Shown: in pieces, positions 54,841-64,000 of the stretch | Layout: each line of letters starts with the position of its first letter | How positions within the stretch are numbered: position 1 is the stretch's first letter | Assembly: GCF_924101635.2 (NCBI RefSeq) | Contig: NZ_CAKMAA020000012.1 | Location: forward strand, 1 to 64,000 | Source: Candidatus Nitrotoga sp. HW29 | Lineage (GTDB): Bacteria; Pseudomonadota; Gammaproteobacteria; Burkholderiales; Gallionellaceae | DNA: 64,000 bases | Reading direction: 5' to 3' | Notes under the pieces: model-generated | What the model was told of the DNA's origin: nothing | The model's database searches: none | What the model saw: the letters and a program-made list of their open reading frames with translations, nothing else | Position numbers and translations under genes: made by a program

Positions 54841-54859
54841 GTGATTACCTCATCCCAAT

Positions 54860-55687
54860 TTAATCTTGAGCAAACTCGATAATTTTTTGGGTTTGTTGAT
54901 CGGGTATGACTACCACATCATTCGCGGTTATTTTCTGAGTAATTTCCTGAAACATTTCAAAGCGCCTACCATCATTTTCGGTTGGCCCCTGCACCGGGAA
55001 CAGAATTCGATCCGGCAATAATTTCAAAGCCCGCAATTTTTCTACTTTTCCCAACCAGGCCCAGCCGTGATCGTAGATTTGCGCGGGGTCTTCGTGCGCC
55101 AGATGCAGGGGCTTAATCGCCTTCACTGCGCGCCCATTCTCTCGATGTACAAAGGGTAGGCGCGTATGATAGACGGCAGCATCCCCCAATGTCTCGGGGC
55201 GATATTGCTTGTCCAGCTTTGCGTCCGTCAAAATCCTACGCACATTTTTTTCCAGTAACTGTTCCTGATAAGCCTTGGTCGCAAAATTGCGTTCCACATA
55301 ATGACCGAACAATTCATCGAATTTTTGTACCGGATCGTCGGCCAGCACCACACGCACCGCATCAAAGCGCATCATGGCCTCGCGTGGGCGCGTCAGCTCG
55401 GCAAACAGTTGACGAGCCAAATCTGTATTTATCCGGTTCTCTTGTTTTGGATCAAGCCAGTTACGGATACGTTTTAGTTCTTGCTTGAAATCGTTGGTGG
55501 CGCGGCGATAGATGCCTGCATCTAATTCCTCGAAAAATGATGTGATGCGGCGGATATGCCGTAATAATCTGAACTCGAATAACCCGGCATCCGGGCACAA
55601 CATCACGATGCCCACATTGGCAAACTCGCCAGTTTCCAAATAAGGTAGGAAGCGGACGATAGCGTACTGACAGGCGTATTTATTCAT
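54860..55687 (-). CDS. DUF3037 protein partnered with HipA-like kinase
   Basis: A 275-residue protein; start ATG 55687 (MNKYACQYAIVRFLPYLETG) overlaps the stop of the kinase gene (TGATG). The opening with EFANVGIVMLCPDAGLFEFR is the DUF3037 signature. DUF3037 genes are repeatedly found next to short HipA-like kinases; the role is unknown. The pair is on the same strand with coupled translation. Confidence 0.85.
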   Translation of the reverse strand: MNKYACQYAIVRFLPYLETGEFANVGIVMLCPDAGLFEFRLLRHIRRITSFFEELDAGIYRRATNDFKQELKRIRNWLDPKQENRINTDLARQLFAELTRPREAMMRFDAVRVVLADDPVQKFDELFGHYVERNFATKAYQEQLLEKNVRRILTDAKLDKQYRPETLGDAAVYHTRLPFVHRENGRAVKAIKPLHLAHEDPAQIYDHGWAWLGKVEKLRALKLLPDRILFPVQGPTENDGRRFEMFQEITQKITANDVVVIPDQQTQKIIEFAQD

Positions 55688-56418
55688 CACGCTATCCTCC
55701 AAAAAGTATCATCGGTAAATCGGTTGAGAGTTTCACTTGCTGCATCACGGTTGAAATTGGCTGCGACTCCATCATCTTCCCACCACCACTCTGGAGGGAC
55801 ATTATCGCAAGCGAAATTGAATTCGACAATTGCATCCGCCAAACGATTGCGGTAGACATCGCGCTCCACCAAATCACCGATGATATTCAAAAGGCTGTTA
55901 TTGAATACATGAGTCTGCGTAAATTGTAGCGAATCAAAGTGCGGGTCGAATACCTGATTGTGGTCAATAACGGCTAATCTCGAATTTTTTTGATCCCACA
56001 GCAAATTTGGATTGCCGCCTTTCTCGCTCAAAGTACGATCCGCGTTATGCACCCACCAGTCGAACAGCACCACATCTTTGCGAACTTGCTCATCTACTTG
56101 GGTAATATGTGAAAAGGAAAACTCCTGTACATGTGGCAATGCCTTGGAGCCGAATACCAGCCCCGTACCCAGTTCGTTTGCATCTCCTCGGCTGCACCAC
56201 CGGATTAATTCAGGCGGAATTTCCATGATTTCAAAATCAGGGACCGGCAGGCCAAAGGCGCGCGCCAGCCGTCCACCCACGTACTCTGCAATCAAGCTTT
56301 GCCTGCCAGCCCCCCGGCCTTTGACAAAGTAAGCCTGCCCATCTTCGCAGCGGCAATAGAACGGTTTGGTGACGCCCTGAATCGAGCGGTCGAGAATTTC
56401 AACAATCTGGACAGTCAT
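55687..56418 (-). CDS. Short HipA-like kinase
   Basis: A 243-residue protein of the HipA-like kinase family without the HipA_N domain: KPFYCRCEDGQAYFVKGRG (nucleotide-binding strand with lysine), GRQSLIAEYVGGRLARAFGL, DWWVHNADRTLSEKGGNPNLL (catalytic loop, H-N-x-D) and RLAVIDHNQVFD (metal-binding D). ATG 56418 follows GGGGG. Coupled with DUF3037. No HipB-like gene is beside it, so control must differ from classical hipBA. Confidence 0.82.
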   Translation of the reverse strand: MTVQIVEILDRSIQGVTKPFYCRCEDGQAYFVKGRGAGRQSLIAEYVGGRLARAFGLPVPDFEIMEIPPELIRWCSRGDANELGTGLVFGSKALPHVQEFSFSHITQVDEQVRKDVVLFDWWVHNADRTLSEKGGNPNLLWDQKNSRLAVIDHNQVFDPHFDSLQFTQTHVFNNSLLNIIGDLVERDVYRNRLADAIVEFNFACDNVPPEWWWEDDGVAANFNRDAASETLNRFTDDTFWRIA

Positions 56419-56433
56419 GCAACCCCCATCAAA

Positions 56434-56640
56434 TCAAGCGCCGCTTCCGGCATCCGCCCCATAAATATCAAGCGCTGGCAGGCTGTTCACAATCTTCATC
56501 GTCTCCAGGCTTACTGTTACCACGTAAGTGGCTTCGTTGCGCAGGTAACACAGGACCGGCTCTTCAAAGTAGGTGCTTTTTTCTCGCTCTGTGACAGATG
56601 CTTGTCGAAAAGTTTCCAGCAGCTTTGGCAGAGCGGTCAT
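56434..56640 (-). pseudogene. Remnant of type ISP restriction helicase
   Basis: A 68-codon frame. Residues 1-38 (MTALPKLLETFRQASVTERE, KSTYFEEPVLCYLRNEATY) resemble the N-terminus of large type ISP restriction-modification/helicase proteins (over 1000 residues). Residues 39-60 (VVTVSLETMKIVNSLPALDI) resemble their C-terminus. The middle is gone, which suggests an in-frame internal deletion. Assignment from memory of the family. Confidence 0.5.
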
Positions 56641-56938
56641 ATTTGAAGTGTTTTAGTGGGCTAAGTTATTTTGCGGATTTAGCTTTGATAGCGATCGCGT
56701 TTGGCAGTATATCGCACCGATATGGGGTGTAACATCTTTGCATCACCCCAAAAAGTGTTTGAGGTAAGTTGAATCTGTTACACCTACGAAGAAATCGATC
56801 GCTTAGTAAGGGTGGTGCGACAGTTTGAACGTAACATATAGCTACTGTGTTTATGCTAGGGGATAGCGTCAGCCCATTGTTTACAAGATATTTTGCTGCT
56901 AGTGTGTGTTTTATGTCACCGCTGCTCCTTGAGGAATC

Positions 56939-57835
56939 ATGACAGCCCATAATCACTCGCATAGCCACACCGCAAACTACGGTCGAGCATTTGCCATCGG
57001 CATTGCACTGAATGTGATGTTTGTAGTCGTTGAAACGATTTTTGGCTGGCAAGCCGACTCGCTTGCGCTACTCTCCGATGCCGGGCATAACCTGAGCGAT
57101 GTGCTTGGCTTACTTGTGGCTTATGGTGGCTTATATCTGGCACGGCTGCGGCCCAATCAGAAACACACATACGGTTTGGGGCGCGCCACAATCCTTGCCG
57201 CGTTGTTTAATGCGATGATCTTGCTGATTGCGATAGGTGGAATCGTGTGGGAAGCCGCCGGCAGATTCACTCATCCGGTGCCGATTCAAGGTGGCATCGT
57301 TATGTGGGTTGCCGCCATGGGAGTCGTAATCAACGGCATCACTGCTTGGCTATTCATGTCCGGCAATAAAACAGATCTCAACCTGCGTGGAGCTTTTCTT
57401 CATATGGCGGCAGATGCGCTGGTTTCACTCGGTGTGGTCATCGCGGGCGCGATGTTTATCTGGACGGGTTGGGTTTGGCTCGACCCGGCCATCAGTATGG
57501 TCATTGCTATCGTGATATTGTGGAGTACGTGGGATTTGCTGCGCCAGTCGTTACATCTTTCTTTGGACGGTGTGCCGGCATCAATCCAATTAGACAAGGT
57601 GAAAAATTATCTGGTAGTTCAGCCCAACGTCATCGAAATACATGATTTGCATGTATGGGCGATGAGTACCTCAGAAATTGCGCTGACCGTTCATTTGGTC
57701 ATGCGTGACGGACATCCGGGGAATGACTTTCTGTGCCGTGTTGCGGAAGAGTTGCACGACAACTTTACTATTGGACACGTCACTATTCAGATTGAGCTGG
57801 ACAAACACCATTGTTCTTTATCCGGTCATACATAG
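56939..57835 (+). CDS. czcD: Cation diffusion facilitator (CzcD/ZitB type)
   Basis: A 298-residue proton/metal antiporter with six membrane helices. The start is histidine-rich (HNHSHSHTANYGRAF). Metal-site motifs H-x3-D occur in helix 2 (DAGHNLSD) and helix 5 (HMAADAL). The C-terminal cytosolic domain ends with HVTIQIELDKHHC. It exports Zn2+ and related metals. ATG 56939 follows GAGGA. Confidence 0.92.
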   Translation: MTAHNHSHSHTANYGRAFAIGIALNVMFVVVETIFGWQADSLALLSDAGHNLSDVLGLLVAYGGLYLARLRPNQKHTYGLGRATILAALFNAMILLIAIGGIVWEAAGRFTHPVPIQGGIVMWVAAMGVVINGITAWLFMSGNKTDLNLRGAFLHMAADALVSLGVVIAGAMFIWTGWVWLDPAISMVIAIVILWSTWDLLRQSLHLSLDGVPASIQLDKVKNYLVVQPNVIEIHDLHVWAMSTSEIALTVHLVMRDGHPGNDFLCRVAEELHDNFTIGHVTIQIELDKHHCSLSGHT

Positions 57836-58013
57836 TTGGCACTTAAAGAGGTAGATTGATCACACTGGAGTAATCGGGAACAGAAGATTGATCAGTCAAT
57901 ACATTAAATTAATTGGCCATGAGCGGACGAGTCAAGCGGTTTTTTAGCATTGGTGAGGAGAGAAAGTCCGTGCGCATATTCAAACTTGCGTCTTATTTTA
58001 TTAGACGAGAGTG

Positions 58014-59102
58014 TTATTGTTTCGCCTTCCTTCGGTTCCACCACATGATGTAGCCAGTGGTAAATAGAATGAGCGGTGACAAACCGATGATCACTTGTAA
58101 AAAGCGGGTAGGTGTCCCGCCTATTACACCGATATGTATCGGGTAAAGTGTGTTAAAAATGCGCGTGCCCAGAGAGGCCTTCAACGCGTTTTCCACCTGT
58201 AATACCTTTCCTGAATATTGATCAAAATAGACGAAATTTCTACCATTTGGATGAAATTCCTGGACAAATTTTTTTCGTACTACCAAGGGTGCCGTCGGTT
58301 TCTGGGGCAGGTTAATCCAGGTGGTGGAGGCAGGCAGTATATAGTCGGCTTGATGCAACATCATGTCGAGTGCAGGCCTCGGCATTTGTGCTTGACGTGG
58401 ATCGGAAAGCGGTGGGGCAGCCCGCGGTGGGCTTTGAGTGATTGCATTGATCAAGTTAATAACCGTTTTATTAAATACTAAAGATGTGCCTGTAGAAGCA
58501 ATGAGTAGAATAAAAAAAACGGCATAGATACCCGAGGCGCGGTGTATATCAAAATTTATTCTTTTCCATTGTGCGGCCCACTGAATTTTAAATCCCGGAG
58601 AAAATTTTCTGTTTCGCGGCCACCATAAAATAAGGCCGGTTATGCTCATGCCAATCAGTAGCAATGCACTTATACCAAGGATAATTTCGCCACGCTCGCC
58701 ATTTAAAAGTTCGGTGTGCAGAAGCGCAATCCATCCGGTAAATGTATCTTTTTGTTGGTGTTCGCCCAAGATCATGCCGTTATAAGGATCAACATAAATG
58801 AACAAATCATGCGCATTGTTCATCTTAATTAAATAGGCTTGCTCTGGAGTGCGCGGCATACGGATGAAAAACGGTTTATCTTCCGGATAGGCGTGCTGCA
58901 CTGTTTCCAGTGCCGCCTGTAAAGAAACACGCTCGTCACGCGGTATGGTGTTCATCAATTCGGGATATACCAGCGCCTCGATCTCTTCGCGAAATACCAA
59001 TATGCTACCGGTCAGCCCGCTTAATATCAGCAGCAATCCGATAGCCAAACCGGTATACAGATGTAATTGGAAAACAATTTTTCTGGTAGTCACGGCTGAC
59101 AT
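58014..59102 (-). CDS. PepSY-associated membrane protein (siderophore operon)
   Basis: A 362-residue inner-membrane protein with four helices: LHLYTGLAIGLLLILSGLTG, GEIILGISALLLIGMSITGLILWWP, FDIHRASGIYAVFFILLIASTG and IGLSPLILFTTGYIMWWNRRK, with conserved histidines and PepSY-like periplasmic segments. Relatives (PiuB/FegB-like) are thought to reduce or release iron from imported siderophores. It is the last gene of the siderophore operon, 18 bases after the SbnG-like gene. Confidence 0.88.
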   Translation of the reverse strand: MSAVTTRKIVFQLHLYTGLAIGLLLILSGLTGSILVFREEIEALVYPELMNTIPRDERVSLQAALETVQHAYPEDKPFFIRMPRTPEQAYLIKMNNAHDLFIYVDPYNGMILGEHQQKDTFTGWIALLHTELLNGERGEIILGISALLLIGMSITGLILWWPRNRKFSPGFKIQWAAQWKRINFDIHRASGIYAVFFILLIASTGTSLVFNKTVINLINAITQSPPRAAPPLSDPRQAQMPRPALDMMLHQADYILPASTTWINLPQKPTAPLVVRKKFVQEFHPNGRNFVYFDQYSGKVLQVENALKASLGTRIFNTLYPIHIGVIGGTPTRFLQVIIGLSPLILFTTGYIMWWNRRKAKQ

Positions 59103-59120
59103 CAGATTTTTTCTATCAAT

Positions 59121-59882
59121 TTACTTAAACCCCATCAAGTGAGCTTTGAGCGCCCGAAAGTTTACTCCCCGATCGTCTCCCAGCAAATAGGCTTGCACAC
59201 CGCGCTCCTTCCAGGCATGTAGTTGGTTTGCAGCACGCGGAATCGCGCAGAATTGGACATTACGCTCGAAGCAGGCAGTAGCAATTTTATCGATTGCGGC
59301 TTCCACGCTCGGATGTTGCGCTTGCCCCGGCAGACCATAAGATTGCGATAAATCGATCGCCCCTTCAAGCACCATGTCAATACCGGTGACCGATAGAATG
59401 GCATCCAGATTATCGATGCCTTCTTTATCCTCGATCATCGCTACTACCATGATTTCAGCATTGGCTCGCTCAAAATAGGTCGGCAGATCGAGAGTGCCAA
59501 AACCGGTGGTACGTCCCCCGCTGATGCCACGGCTTCCCAGCGGATAATACCGGCTGGCGGTGACTGCCTGTTCGGCATCGAAGCGGTTGCGTACATGCGG
59601 TATGACGATTCCTTGAGCGCCGCAATCCAATGCACGCAAGATGTTTTCCGGCGCGGCATTGGGCACTCTGATCAAGGGTGTCATGGCGGCGCATTCGGCG
59701 GCTCGCACCATGTTTTCAAGTGTTTCCGGATTTACGCAAACGTGCTCCATGTCCAGAATCACGAAATCGTAGCCCGCATAGCCAATCATTTCGACTACCA
59801 ACGGCGACGGAATCGAATTGAGCAATCCGAAAACAGTCTTGCCATTAACGAGCGCCTGTTTAAGTTGATTGGTTTGCAACAT
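59121..59882 (-). CDS. HpcH/HpaI-family citrate synthase, SbnG-like
   Basis: A 253-residue HpcH/HpaI aldolase-family enzyme: FVILDMEHVCVN, PLIRVPNAAPENILRALDCGAQGIVIPHVRN, YPLGSRGISGGRTTGFG and AMIEDKEGIDNLDAIL with the metal-binding glutamate. In staphyloferrin B clusters this family provides SbnG, which makes citrate from oxaloacetate and acetyl-CoA. The setting beside a decarboxylase and an IucA/IucC synthetase supports that role over a catabolic aldolase. ATG 59882 overlaps the decarboxylase gene end by 23 bases. Confidence 0.85.
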   Translation of the reverse strand: MLQTNQLKQALVNGKTVFGLLNSIPSPLVVEMIGYAGYDFVILDMEHVCVNPETLENMVRAAECAAMTPLIRVPNAAPENILRALDCGAQGIVIPHVRNRFDAEQAVTASRYYPLGSRGISGGRTTGFGTLDLPTYFERANAEIMVVAMIEDKEGIDNLDAILSVTGIDMVLEGAIDLSQSYGLPGQAQHPSVEAAIDKIATACFERNVQFCAIPRAANQLHAWKERGVQAYLLGDDRGVNFRALKAHLMGFK

Positions 59883-61098
59883 ATGGTTGCTCCTCTATTG
59901 GCAAATACCATTGCTGCGGATGTGGATGACGCAAAAAATCGTGATGGGATATATGCCAGGCATAGGCACCCGCATAAGGAAATACCAGCAAGTCGCCACA
60001 ACGCGCCGATTTGACTGACACGTCAAATGCCAGCAAGTCTTTCGGCGTGCATAATTGCCCCACAATATTCACTTTTTCGTTGGAAATTTCAGGGCGTGGA
60101 AATGGATACTGCCATTCATTGATCGGTATCACATGAAAGGGATGGCTGTGACCTTGCGCGTAAGGCGTGCGAAAGTGATGTGAGCCGCCTCTGCCGACTA
60201 TAAAGCTCTTGCCGTAGCTCCGCTTGATATCGATAATCTGCATCACATAGTAGCCGCAGGCGGCGGTGATATAACGGCCTAACTCAAAACGTACACGGAT
60301 CCCAGGCAAGCCGCTATTTTTTAATAATGCGGACAATCCGGCGCTAAAAACTGTCCAGTCGAATTGCTGTTGAGGTTGCCGATAATTAATACCAATACCG
60401 CCACCTACATTGATATGGTCGATTTCCAACTCGTATACATCGCACCATCGCCGGACCTGTCTTAGATATGACGCCACCAGTTGCAAATGGGCTTGGGCGT
60501 CGAGCTGATGTGATAACAAGTGAAAATGAAAGCCGCGCAGCCGAATTTCAGGATGAGCCCGTAACCATCGCATGCATTCCGGCAATTGCTGAATAGAAAT
60601 GCCAAATGGAGTTGGTTTTCCACCCATCATCAAGCTGGTTTCTGCCAAATTGTCGACTACCATGTTGAGACGTAACAGTATCGCCACCGTTTTATCTGTC
60701 TGGATGGCAATCCCGGCTAACCGCTGTAATTCGTTAAGACTTTCAACATGCAGACAATCGACATTTTGATCTATCGCCTCATCGAGTTCCTGATCCAATT
60801 TACCCGGGCCGCTAAAAATCACCGGCATATCTGCAAAGTGTTCACGCACCCAGGCTAGCTCGCCGCCCGAAGATACCTCAAAGCCATTTATGATGGGTGC
60901 CAGTGTCTGCAGAATGGGTAGATCAGAATTGGCTTTTATCGCGTAAAATAATTCATAGCCTTCAGGCAAAGTTTTGATCAAATTTGCCGCATGCCGCCGC
61001 AAGGCCGCCAAGTCATATACATAAGCACACAATGGCTCGTCGGTATCGGCCTGTGCAGCGCAAATGCTTTTAAATACTTCAGTTAATCTTAACTTCAT
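59860..61098 (-). CDS. PLP-dependent decarboxylase, SbnH-like
   Basis: A 412-residue fold-type III decarboxylase of the diaminopimelate/ornithine group. K55 in FYAIKANSD binds PLP; GFHFHLLSHQ, HINVGGGIGINY, FELGRY, QLCTPKDLLA (active-site cysteine) and GAYAWHISHHDFL follow. SbnH decarboxylates a citryl-diaminopropionate intermediate in staphyloferrin B assembly; by context the same role is likely here. ATG 61098 overlaps the synthetase gene (ATGA). Confidence 0.85.
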   Translation of the reverse strand: MKLRLTEVFKSICAAQADTDEPLCAYVYDLAALRRHAANLIKTLPEGYELFYAIKANSDLPILQTLAPIINGFEVSSGGELAWVREHFADMPVIFSGPGKLDQELDEAIDQNVDCLHVESLNELQRLAGIAIQTDKTVAILLRLNMVVDNLAETSLMMGGKPTPFGISIQQLPECMRWLRAHPEIRLRGFHFHLLSHQLDAQAHLQLVASYLRQVRRWCDVYELEIDHINVGGGIGINYRQPQQQFDWTVFSAGLSALLKNSGLPGIRVRFELGRYITAACGYYVMQIIDIKRSYGKSFIVGRGGSHHFRTPYAQGHSHPFHVIPINEWQYPFPRPEISNEKVNIVGQLCTPKDLLAFDVSVKSARCGDLLVFPYAGAYAWHISHHDFLRHPHPQQWYLPIEEQPYVANQST

Positions 61099-62927
61099 GT
61101 ACCATCCTCTCCCAGCGCACCCAGCGGGTTATTCACCGGTAAGTACGCTGAAGCGCGATCCGCCCGCTTGAAAAAACGGTTGATCAAATTTGCTTTTCCT
61201 GGAAGCGGCTCACCATTAAACAAGGCATTAATACACCGTGCTGAAACGTCGTCTCCATAGTGACGTTGATAAACATGCAGATGGTGTCGTACCATTGTCC
61301 ATAAGCGATTGTTTAATGCCGGTTTACCTGCACTGATCTGGCTGATTGCCTCGCAAAAATTGTTGACGAACAGGCAATAGGCAACTCGTTTCCATCCCTG
61401 ATCATTGCTATACCAGAGGGACTCGCGGGCGCGCGGACTTATGGTTTCCAGTTGATTTGTGCAATAGCGCTCTTTCACCAGCTTGACCCCCTCGAAATCG
61501 CGCAAGAAAACCTGTTGCGGTTCTCCTCCGGTCACGCCGATTATCACGTTTTGCAAGTGCGGCTCGAATATGACACCGTGAGCGAAATAGCAGTACAGTA
61601 CCGGATACATGATTTCGGCGACGTAACGCGAAAACCATTGTTCGGCGGCCTCCTCGAAGGGTATTTTTCTATGCTGCTCCATGTTCGCAAGCAATTCACG
61701 AATGCGAGCTTCTCCATAGACGTGGTTACCGAATAATGCACCGGCCAAAATAGGCGTTACACCGGTAAGCAGCACATCGGCGAAATTTTGCCGCAGGATC
61801 ATGCCGAAGCCTTCGGTTACCTCCTTGGCAAAGTGATCTTCCTGCTTTAAATCTACCGAGATGAATGCTGGCTCTTCCAATACTCGGATCCCCGGGAATT
61901 GCAGCTCCAAGCTTGGCATTAATGCGCGCATGATTTTGGTCACTTGCAGTGCACCCTCAAGTTCGTAAACCGCATTTTTGCGTACACAGTTGGTTATTCG
62001 AATGTTCAATGAACACTTGTAGAAATACGGATTGTCGGGATGGAACAGGGTGCGGATTGACGAGGTGGGGTAATAATTTGGTCCTTGTTGTCCCAGGTTG
62101 CGGATACGTCCGGTTCGGATTGCTGCCGCAACGCTTACATGGCCGAGCAGATAGCGTGCCTGCCACGGATGGGTCGGAATTAACGCAAACTCATCGTCAG
62201 CGGCGAGACCGGCAGGTGCCTGGGCCGTGACGATTTGATCGCACGACTCGGTAAGCATCGATTGCTGCAATAAGTATTCGCGGCGTACTGCGAAGTAATG
62301 CAGAGGGAAGTTTGCCCCTGTTTCTGGTGAATAGCGCAGCATATCTTCGTGGGAAACGCCTTGGCGGCTTTTCGGAGCGGGGTGAAACGGATGGCCAAAA
62401 ATCAGCGATTGTTCGGATTCAATAAATGCCTGTAATGGTTCCTGCGAAAAGCGTCCAGGGCGGGAAGCGCATAGCACGGCAGTGGTAACTGCAACGCTGT
62501 CGTGAATCTGTTGCATCAACTCATCGTTCACAGGTAGTTTATTCTTCAAAGACATCTCGCGTAGCAAAAGTCTCGCGAACACTTGCCAATCCAGCAAGGC
62601 CCAGGGTTTTCCAGGGGATTTGCAATAGAATGGTGATTGGTAGCGATAGTTGCTAGTGAGGGAAGCGCCGTCGACTACCGTGAGCAGACGATCTCCGGTA
62701 AGCGGCAGTCGAACGTGCATGATGCGGCCACCGCTACGCTGTAAAGCCAGTCGTATGGATACCGGATTATCGTTTTGGCCGAATAAAGGCCCCACGCTTA
62801 ATTGCCCTTCCGGGCCCGCCACCTCACGGCAATAGCAATTAAGCAAAGTTTCCATAGAGCGTCGACCGGCTTCCTGGTGAGCTATTTGTAGGGAGTCGAT
62901 GGCTTCCGCTAAATTGTTGGTATGCAT
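61095..62927 (-). CDS. IucA/IucC-family siderophore synthetase
   Basis: A 610-residue NIS synthetase that condenses a carboxylate with an amine after adenylation. ATP-binding motifs: SLIFGHPFHPAPKSRQGVS, LIPTHPWQ, TSSIRTLFHP, KCSLNIRITNCVRKN, FEPHLQNVIIGV and FLRDFEGVKL. It follows the MFS gene by 22 bases. Staphyloferrin B needs three such enzymes; only one is in view, so others may be beyond the right edge. Confidence 0.92.
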   Translation of the reverse strand: MHTNNLAEAIDSLQIAHQEAGRRSMETLLNCYCREVAGPEGQLSVGPLFGQNDNPVSIRLALQRSGGRIMHVRLPLTGDRLLTVVDGASLTSNYRYQSPFYCKSPGKPWALLDWQVFARLLLREMSLKNKLPVNDELMQQIHDSVAVTTAVLCASRPGRFSQEPLQAFIESEQSLIFGHPFHPAPKSRQGVSHEDMLRYSPETGANFPLHYFAVRREYLLQQSMLTESCDQIVTAQAPAGLAADDEFALIPTHPWQARYLLGHVSVAAAIRTGRIRNLGQQGPNYYPTSSIRTLFHPDNPYFYKCSLNIRITNCVRKNAVYELEGALQVTKIMRALMPSLELQFPGIRVLEEPAFISVDLKQEDHFAKEVTEGFGMILRQNFADVLLTGVTPILAGALFGNHVYGEARIRELLANMEQHRKIPFEEAAEQWFSRYVAEIMYPVLYCYFAHGVIFEPHLQNVIIGVTGGEPQQVFLRDFEGVKLVKERYCTNQLETISPRARESLWYSNDQGWKRVAYCLFVNNFCEAISQISAGKPALNNRLWTMVRHHLHVYQRHYGDDVSARCINALFNGEPLPGKANLINRFFKRADRASAYLPVNNPLGALGEDGT

Positions 62928-62949
62928 GGTTCCTCCTAATGGGTAATGA

Positions 62950-64000
62950 CTAAGAATTGTTTAGGTGTAAACGATATGCCGCTAAGCCAGCCAGATATAA
63001 GCCAGCAATGAATAGAGTGAATGCGCCAATAAAAAAAGGGGCGCGTAAATCGAGCATTTGAACCGCAGTACCGGCAATTAAACCGGCGATAACGGCGCCC
63101 CATTTGGAACTGCTTTCGAACCAGCCGAAAGTGCGTCCTGCATTGCCGCTGGTTACGATGCCCGCGATTAGCGTGTGCAATCCTATGAAGCCGATGGTCA
63201 TGCTGAATCCCATTACGATGCGCCAGGCAACCACGGCAGGTAGCGACGGAAATAGCGCTTGACCGAACAGTGATGCAGCTAGCAACAGATATGATATCGA
63301 CAGCATGAACATCAAGCTGCGCTGCTCCAGATAACGATTCAATGGTACTGCGCACAATAGATAGATCAAATGCGGGAGCCCAAACAGTAGCCCGGCTATA
63401 GCCGGTGTAACTGAGCTGAAATCAGCTTGAATAAAGGGAATAAAATAAGGAAACGTAATGACGGTGGCAAATATGAACGCGAACTGCAAGGCGTAGACTT
63501 GCTGAGACGAGGCTTCTCTCGCTTTACCCGTGGCCTGCATCGGTGTTTTAGTCGCCGTTTGTACTTGAGAAACAGGCAGCCATCCAATGAACAGCGCAGC
63601 GATTAGCGGTAACAGCGCCAGGTAACGGTATAGCTCAATAGGAGATTCGATAGTCATTAGCAGGCCTAATCCCGCCGGTGCGACCACCAATGCCGCCCGT
63701 GCCGACCATTGCATCAATGTCAGACTGCGGGTTAGGTCTGTGCCGTTTACTACCGTTGCCAAATAAGCATTGGAGGCGGCGAAGGTCCCGCCGAGCAAAC
63801 CTTGCAGTGATAAAGCAATGAAGAATACCCAGATATTTGGAGCAAATCCGGCGAGCAGAAAACTTCCCGCCAATCCCAGTTGAGCGCGCAGCAATAACGG
63901 CTTTTTGCCGTATTTATCCGCCAACTTGCCCCACCACGGACTGCTAATCGCGGTAAAAAAAGTTGGCATGACATATAACCATCCAGCCAGATAGGTGGCT
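62950..64000 (-). CDS. MFS transporter, siderophore exporter (5' end outside window)
   Basis: The frame continues past the right edge; at least 350 residues are visible. It begins in view with LAGWLYVMPTFFTAISSPWW, then GKLADKYGKKPLLLRAQLGL (the MFS motif A, DKYGKKP), and about ten membrane segments follow. The C-terminal half has GFSMTIGFIGLHTLIAG. It is the upstream partner of the synthetase gene and probably exports the finished siderophore (SbnD-like). Confidence 0.87.
   Translation of the reverse strand, partial: ATYLAGWLYVMPTFFTAISSPWWGKLADKYGKKPLLLRAQLGLAGSFLLAGFAPNIWVFFIALSLQGLLGGTFAASNAYLATVVNGTDLTRSLTLMQWSARAALVVAPAGLGLLMTIESPIELYRYLALLPLIAALFIGWLPVSQVQTATKTPMQATGKAREASSQQVYALQFAFIFATVITFPYFIPFIQADFSSVTPAIAGLLFGLPHLIYLLCAVPLNRYLEQRSLMFMLSISYLLLAASLFGQALFPSLPAVVAWRIVMGFSMTIGFIGLHTLIAGIVTSGNAGRTFGWFESSSKWGAVIAGLIAGTAVQMLDLRAPFFIGAFTLFIAGLYLAGLAAYRLHLNNS

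Follow-up and report, generated by a model that had tools for sequence, protein, structure and literature searches.

The 64,000-nucleotide stretch analysed here (the window, i.e. positions 1–64,000 of contig C12, which extends to 81,991 in a genome of 2.99 Mb in 96 contigs) carries at its right-hand end part of what is very probably a complete and working operon for a vibrioferrin-type siderophore. The host is a Candidatus Nitrotoga species, a nitrite oxidiser; its ATP-grasp protein is 93–94% identical to those of Candidatus Nitrotoga SPKER, CP45 and LAW, 92% to that of Nitrotoga sp. 1052 and 77% to that of N. fabula. The nitrifier-type betaproteobacterium envisaged in the original prediction is thus borne out, since Candidatus Nitrotoga oxidises nitrite. 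The operon reads ATP-grasp ligase, non-ribosomal peptide synthetase (NRPS)-independent siderophore (NIS) synthetase, major facilitator superfamily (MFS) exporter, second NIS synthetase and pyridoxal phosphate (PLP)-dependent decarboxylase, which is the order of pvsABCDE; the relevant parts of PMC4465626, PMC5812596 and PMC5577590 give this order together with disruption evidence. The features are as follows.

58014–59102, minus strand: PepSY-TM inner-membrane protein, a probable periplasmic ferri-siderophore reductase (Pfam PepSY_TM, 232.1 bits)
59121–59882, minus strand: SbnG-type citrate synthase of the HpcH/HpaI fold (Pfam HpcH_HpaI, 101.3 bits; structure 4tv5, 243 bits)
59860–61098, minus strand: PvsE, PLP type III decarboxylase of the SbnH/PvsE group, fifth gene in the pvs order (structure 6knh, 355 bits)
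61095–62927, minus strand: PvsD, AcsD-like type A NIS synthetase, predicted to form a citrate ester (Pfam IucA_IucC, 226.6 bits; FhuF, 127.6 bits)
62950–64000, continuing to C12 64122, minus strand: PvsC, MFS exporter (Pfam MFS_1, 113 bits)
C12 64119–65984, outside the window: PvsB, second IucA/IucC NIS synthetase
C12 65966–67174, outside the window: PvsA, ATP-grasp ligase
C12 67186–69555, outside the window: FecA-like TonB receptor (receptor 1) with an N-terminal STN-like stretch
C12 69680–70891, outside the window: FecR
C12 70791–71333, outside the window: FecI-type sigma factor
C12 54853–71718, of which 54853–64000 lies in the window: variable block carrying the operon (ends from blastn junctions)

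The five genes in the window, all on the minus strand, are real and consecutive as judged from reading frames and Pfam, with scores far over the cut-offs, and the overlaps of 4 bases (61095–61098) and 23 bases (59860–59882) are exact. The genes also bear out the earlier proposal that an operon is dedicated to an NIS siderophore and brings its own citrate synthase of the SbnG type.

The pvs gene order is also found on C. necator pHG1 and on Pantoea soli (where the ligase is annotated PvsA), Vibrio fortis, Piscirickettsia and Rhodococcus plasmids. When named genomes were searched with a PvsA profile built from nine sequences, at least 591 stretches matched, of which at least 559 were confirmed. 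We analysed the best 80 loci, i.e. those most like the query rather than a census. In 70 of these, including Xanthomonas and Azotobacter, PvsA to PvsE were in order on one strand; seven others stop at a contig end and are without one to three pvs genes, and the remaining three (L077, L080 and L098) have another layout. In L077 and L080 (Rhizorhapis and Sphingomonas), the PvsA homologue is on the opposite strand to weakly similar PvsB, PvsC, PvsD and PvsE, and the stretch has no SbnG-like gene.

Both NIS synthetases fall with the PvsB and PvsD proteins of genera known as vibrioferrin producers, by a quick tree and a motif alignment; that Xanthomonas (Xcc) makes vibrioferrin is stated in a passage of PMC5130282. 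In the tree (53 rows, built by a quick method and with long branches flagged), our PvsB lies within a 22-row PvsB set (SH-aLRT 99), which in turn groups with SbnC and acs3. Our PvsD falls with the PvsD rows and acs1, together with SbnE on a long branch, and is separate from SbnF and SbnC. PvsB carries the motif E(S/A)NQQN, in which asparagine replaces the histidine of the NIS motif E-x-H-x-Q-N; this replacement is seen in 20 of the 22 PvsB rows. Histidine occupies the position in all 31 other NIS rows and in two PvsB rows (Rhodococcus and Streptomyces). This asparagine may mark out the PvsB subfamily.

The pvs genes are under purifying selection. Ratios of nonsynonymous to synonymous substitution (dN/dS) were computed against four relatives, SPKER, CP45, LAW and 1052, with N. 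fabula excluded as its synonymous sites are saturated. Values were 0.08–0.20 for PvsA–E and SbnG taken together (0.088–0.117 for the SbnG-like gene itself), compared to 0.12–0.26 for PepSY and 0.04–0.06 for two flanking genes where these were comparable with the same relatives.

Relatives of the Pvs proteins were sought among solved structures and known operons. The closest solved relative of PvsD is AcsD (294 bits; the next, IucA, 142), an enzyme that joins citrate to serine. The best solved match of PvsB is 7cbb (76 bits), which we take to be SbnC. The solved relatives of PvsA are carbamoyl phosphate synthase (46 bits) and L-amino acid ligases (25–29 bits), and PvsC is 61% identical over 87% of its length to the MFS protein of the C. 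necator H16 pHG1 operon. PvsE matches 6knh (355 bits), which the table of solved structures in PMC7139808 names SbnH.

The reactions, the product and the regulation are predicted from these genes. SbnG would make citrate as a dedicated supply; PvsD would link the citrate to the hydroxyl of serine as an ester, and PvsE would then decarboxylate the product to an ethanolamine ester. PvsA would make an amide with alanine, PvsB, a type B NIS synthetase, would attach 2-oxoglutarate as a further amide, and PvsC would export the siderophore. The three ligases (PvsD, PvsA and PvsB) would thus correspond to the three bonds of vibrioferrin.

The SbnG-like protein matches the solved SbnG (4tv5) at 243 bits, compared to 129 bits for the next aldolase. 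As the genome already has one ordinary citrate synthase, SbnG is predicted to be a dedicated second citrate supply. Among the best 80 loci, 68 of the 70 ordered ones have an SbnG-like gene within the fetched stretch, as do two of the seven that stop at a contig end; L098, like L077 and L080, has none. In the 70 of the 80 that have it, the gene overlaps the pvs block by up to 19 bases or stands as much as 2.6 kb away from it, and its product is 41–95% identical to ours. One copy, a low-identity one from Xanthomonas, was checked singly and had SbnG as its closest solved relative (130 bits versus 107 for the next), as did a profile of four of the SbnG-like proteins (304 versus 161 bits). The 19-kb stretches from V. 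fortis and Piscirickettsia have no SbnG-like gene. Since 68 of the 70 ordered loci carry the gene, SbnG is no marker of staphyloferrin B. A literature search pairing vibrioferrin with SbnG found no paper. Separately, an unannotated SbnG-like stretch lies directly upstream of a TonB receptor on Acinetobacter soli pGFJ1 (L121:9001–9741), with no synthetase gene annotated nearby.

The original prediction had named the product as staphyloferrin B, whose operon comprises three NIS synthetases, SbnA and SbnB (which make diaminopropionate), SbnH and SbnG. SbnG-like and SbnH-like enzymes are indeed present, and the best solved match of PvsB is the presumed SbnC, but SbnG and SbnH homologues are also common to pvs and achromobactin-type loci. 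Two further synthetases had been expected to the right of position 64,000; one is there and the second is not, so that the genome has two in total rather than the SbnC/SbnE/SbnF trio of an sbn operon. The SbnA/SbnB-like enzymes expected alongside them did not appear either. The SbnB model gave no match in the window's genome, and the SbnA model gave four, the best two of which (232 and 214 bits, cut-off 349.95) instead qualify as cysteine synthases A and B by the cut-offs of those models; the SbnA model also matched in 14 of 14 control genomes, under its cut-off in each. On the NCBIfam models our NIS proteins reach 97 bits (SbnC) and 89 bits (SbnF), versus 320 and 464 bits for SbnC and SbnF of an sbn operon in the same genus (genome G013, below). 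However, these scores alone cannot separate the pathways because SbnE of that same operon scores just 60 bits on the SbnF model. With an ATP-grasp ligase sitting in the pvs order as well, staphyloferrin B was rejected on the gene content of the genome, and we allow it scarcely any chance. An achromobactin-type pathway would combine an AcsD-like synthetase, an SbnH-like decarboxylase and an SbnG-like citrate synthase, all of which have counterparts here: AcsD is the closest solved relative of PvsD, and clusters on Sodalis pSG1 and in Thalassospira join these three kinds of protein. Each of those clusters, however, encodes a diaminobutyrate aminotransferase alongside three NIS synthetases, and nothing in them matches PvsA. 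Here there are two NIS synthetases (genome-wide) and an ATP-grasp ligase, and none of the ten operon proteins scanned is an aminotransferase. This reading was also rejected, and is highly improbable.

It is unlikely that the same enzyme set makes a relative of vibrioferrin with altered building blocks, alanine or serine being exchanged for a different amino acid. The betaproteobacterial PvsB and PvsD proteins form their own tree branches, and two actinobacterial relatives hold most of the gene set with histidine in the PvsB motif; on the other hand, the five PvsB/PvsD motif stretches compared differ little from their Xanthomonas and Azotobacter counterparts. A decaying remnant that no longer produces a siderophore is very unlikely. 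Two Nitrotoga genomes do have receptor and PepSY sequence without synthetases, and dN/dS is raised for PepSY, but the operon genes are open in the window's genome and the purifying selection on the pvs genes argues for function.

Several observations nevertheless weigh against a working vibrioferrin operon. Our PvsB and PvsD are 38–43% and 35–38% identical, respectively, to those of Xanthomonas, Azotobacter and V. fortis; with such moderate identity to loci of known producer genera, a close analogue of vibrioferrin is possible, and vibrioferrin itself is predicted from genes rather than from chemistry. Passages in two reviews (PMC5577590 and PMC6836290) give the ester bond to PvsA, unlike the assignment to PvsD made here, and the former calls the vibrioferrin steps untested. 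No siderophore ABC importer is found among the operon's genes, unlike in V. fortis. The STN match of the receptor (25.4 bits) is under the Pfam cut-off of 28.4, and a search of four intergenic stretches with the E. coli consensus found no Fur box, the best scores being equalled by 440–499 of 500 shuffles.

SbnB models exceeded their cut-off in two of 399 genomes of the order (L117 and L118). In the corresponding stretches (L122 and L123) none of the ten operon proteins has a relative (E 1e-4), so these stretches were not used as yardsticks for staphyloferrin B. L122 has a 2151-codon open reading frame near the SbnB-model gene, perhaps a diaminopropionate-using NRPS.

For the vibrioferrin-type operon, the ferric siderophore would re-enter the cell via the FecA-like receptor. 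The signalling stretch at the N terminus of this receptor probably acts with FecR and FecI to turn the locus on; control of the locus by FecI/FecR is thus predicted. PepSY would probably reduce the iron in the periplasm. The receptor is homologous to the pvs-adjacent receptors of Xanthomonas, Azotobacter and V. fortis (40–45% identity); the receptor beside the C. necator operon has no homology to it over its length. The only solved relative found for PepSY was 7abw (98 bits), presumably FoxB. All eight other Nitrotoga genomes that carry siderophore genes, whole or as remnants, have PepSY, at 71–91% identity. One copy, on contig C27 of 1052, is broken; suspected breaks in SPKER, G008 and contig C18 of 1052 were rejected, as the frames are open to codons 365–367, past the match.

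NIS synthetases were found in seven of 19 Nitrotoga genomes. Six have the full pvs set: the window's genome (G000), CP45 (G003), N. fabula (G005), SPKER (G007), LAW (G009) and 1052 (G010). SPKER, CP45 and LAW (L037, L038 and L039) have all of PvsA–E, SbnG and the receptor at 88–95% identity. The seventh, G013, has three NIS synthetases as part of a complete operon of the sbnABCDEFGHI type, next to the same receptor. Two more genomes are without NIS synthetases: G008 retains FecI, FecR, receptor 1, a second receptor (receptor 2) and PepSY, the last two as open frames, and G006 retains FecI, FecR, a broken receptor and PepSY. In the remaining ten, neither an NIS synthetase nor receptor 1 (E 1e-150) was found and no PepSY match exceeded 26% identity, receptor 2 not having been searched for genome-wide; four of these ten are less than 90% complete.

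The variable block occupies a recurrent site. In the window's genome, CP45, G006, SPKER and G008, the locus lies between the same MFS gene and an alanine dehydrogenase gene; in LAW, the MFS gene and a cation-efflux gene are seen at the locus and the fetched stretch stops before the dehydrogenase. The MFS and alanine dehydrogenase genes adjoin in G014, G015 and 1052, where blastn breaks each time at C12 54852 and 71719, and the site is likewise empty in N. fabula by protein positions. The site holds only the cation-efflux gene in G018 and other genes in G017. In N. fabula, 1052 and G013, the siderophore genes are on contigs other than that of the MFS gene. The receptor 1 copies on other contigs in these three genomes (L168, L169, L125 and L164) are without the STN part, and the stretches fetched around them gave no FecI/FecR match; therefore, regulation may differ by site. 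The block also carries, at 54860–56418 of the window, a pair of genes for a DUF3037 protein and a HipA_2 kinase-like protein, the ends of which overlap. In G006 (L165:3964–8118), a chimeric receptor joins the STN part of receptor 1 to the body of receptor 2 and is split by an IS110-family transposase gene; its homology to our receptor 1 ends at C12 69167, a boundary shared by a G008 fragment.

The G013 locus (L164, G013:C23:126500–146400) reads receptor 1, sbnA-B-C-D-E-F-G-H, an sbnI-like gene, a second receptor and PepSY, with SbnA and SbnB over their cut-offs (432.5 and 391.9 bits). Compared to the window's locus, receptor 1 and PepSY are both 78% identical and the synthetases 24–29%. In a tree whose 21 rows outside the Nitrotoga clade were all chosen from pvs loci, G013 receptor 1 is one of the nine rows of the Nitrotoga clade (100/100), and its sister there is the N. 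fabula receptor (99/95). Between receptor 1 and sbnA, G013 has a 128-base match to pvsA (about codons 11–54), colinear with pvs loci. This piece scores 64.4 bits against LAW and G008, 60 against CP45, 55 against SPKER, 46 against 1052, 39 against our own pvsA and 27 against N. fabula, compared to at most 25 bits against Thiobacillus, Nitrosomonas and a Hydrogenophilales genome. When the gap (first 60 bases omitted) was shuffled 300 times in two-base blocks, the highest score was 31.9 bits. Because the pvsA piece persists within it, the staphyloferrin B locus appears to have replaced a vibrioferrin locus.

Other genomes bear related scars. In G008, pvsA codons 1–86 are joined to sbnA codons 1–20 and sbnI codons 12–168, with the second receptor and PepSY, and contig C18 of 1052 has a similar scar with other ends. 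From these remains, a staphyloferrin B core seems to have taken the place of the vibrioferrin core in the G013 lineage, and cores seem later to have been lost. A second receptor also stands beside full pvs operons (intact in CP45, as scraps in LAW, SPKER and 1052), so that it may have been sbn-borne or older, which speaks against a simple replacement story; the window's own locus has no scrap of it. The exchange is one of the block's core and is not tied to the chromosomal site used in the window, because the G013 locus is on a contig other than that of the MFS gene. On balance, we favour the view that Nitrotoga keeps one chassis (receptor 1, second receptor and PepSY reductase) with exchanged biosynthetic cores. 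In one lineage a complete staphyloferrin B core would have displaced the vibrioferrin core, and other lineages would have lost their cores. The receptor-only strains may live on, i.e. pirate, the siderophores of their neighbours.

We take SPKER, CP45 and LAW to be among the genomes of the Boddicker and Mosier 2018 study. Their complete operons contradict the published absence of siderophores in river Nitrotoga, if that assumption is right: a passage of PMC8494671, citing Boddicker and Mosier 2018, describes river Nitrotoga genomes with iron-acquisition genes and siderophores not present. The isolate paper on N. fabula (PMC6050957), searched as text, contains none of the terms siderophore, iron uptake, TonB or vibrioferrin. 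In the literature pairing vibrioferrin with Nitrosomonas, the vibrioferrin match examined belongs to another metagenome-assembled genome. Passages elsewhere state that nitrite oxidation requires iron–sulfur centres (PMC8494671) and that vibrioferrin is photolabile and weakly binding (PMC5577590). Such a siderophore would suit sharing in sunlit rivers. With the full pathway in Nitrotoga genomes, these bacteria may feed iron to their neighbours or rob them of it. The pathway family is an ordinary one; the host was said to lack it, and its replacement history in a congener is unusual. The loci show a fossil-marked replacement of a siderophore pathway, with producers, a switched producer and receptor-only genomes within one genus.

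Among known systems, pvsABCDE of the V. fortis plasmid has the same gene order, the same PvsA–E families and a neighbouring TonB receptor (41% over 80%). It differs in having a FecBCDE-like ATP-binding cassette (ABC) importer and no SbnG-type gene in its 19-kb stretch, whereas the window's locus has SbnG, PepSY and FecI/FecR and no ABC importer. The C. necator H16 pHG1 operon (L031) has the same order with SbnG last, and its PvsA, PvsE and SbnG are 62%, 65% and 69% identical to ours, but its receptor is of another group (29% over 19%) and its 19-kb stretch has no PepSY or FecI/FecR match. The 11 Xanthomonas pvs-type loci, taken as the xss operon, share the PvsA–E order, an SbnG-like gene and a homologous receptor; in these the SbnG-like gene is upstream of the receptor, identity is 36–50% and the SbnG margin is smaller in the one tested. 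Within Nitrotoga, the sbnA–I operon of G013 has SbnH-like (48%) and SbnG-like (42%) proteins between a receptor and PepSY close to ours, but three other NIS synthetases, SbnA, SbnB and an SbnI-like gene, and no ATP-grasp ligase among its open reading frames. In Salinispora, too, one siderophore pathway has reportedly supplanted another, a replacement said to have been described by Bruns and colleagues in 2018. Unlike that case, the exchange in Nitrotoga is between two NIS pathways, in a nitrite oxidiser, and a pvsA fossil remains inside the new locus.

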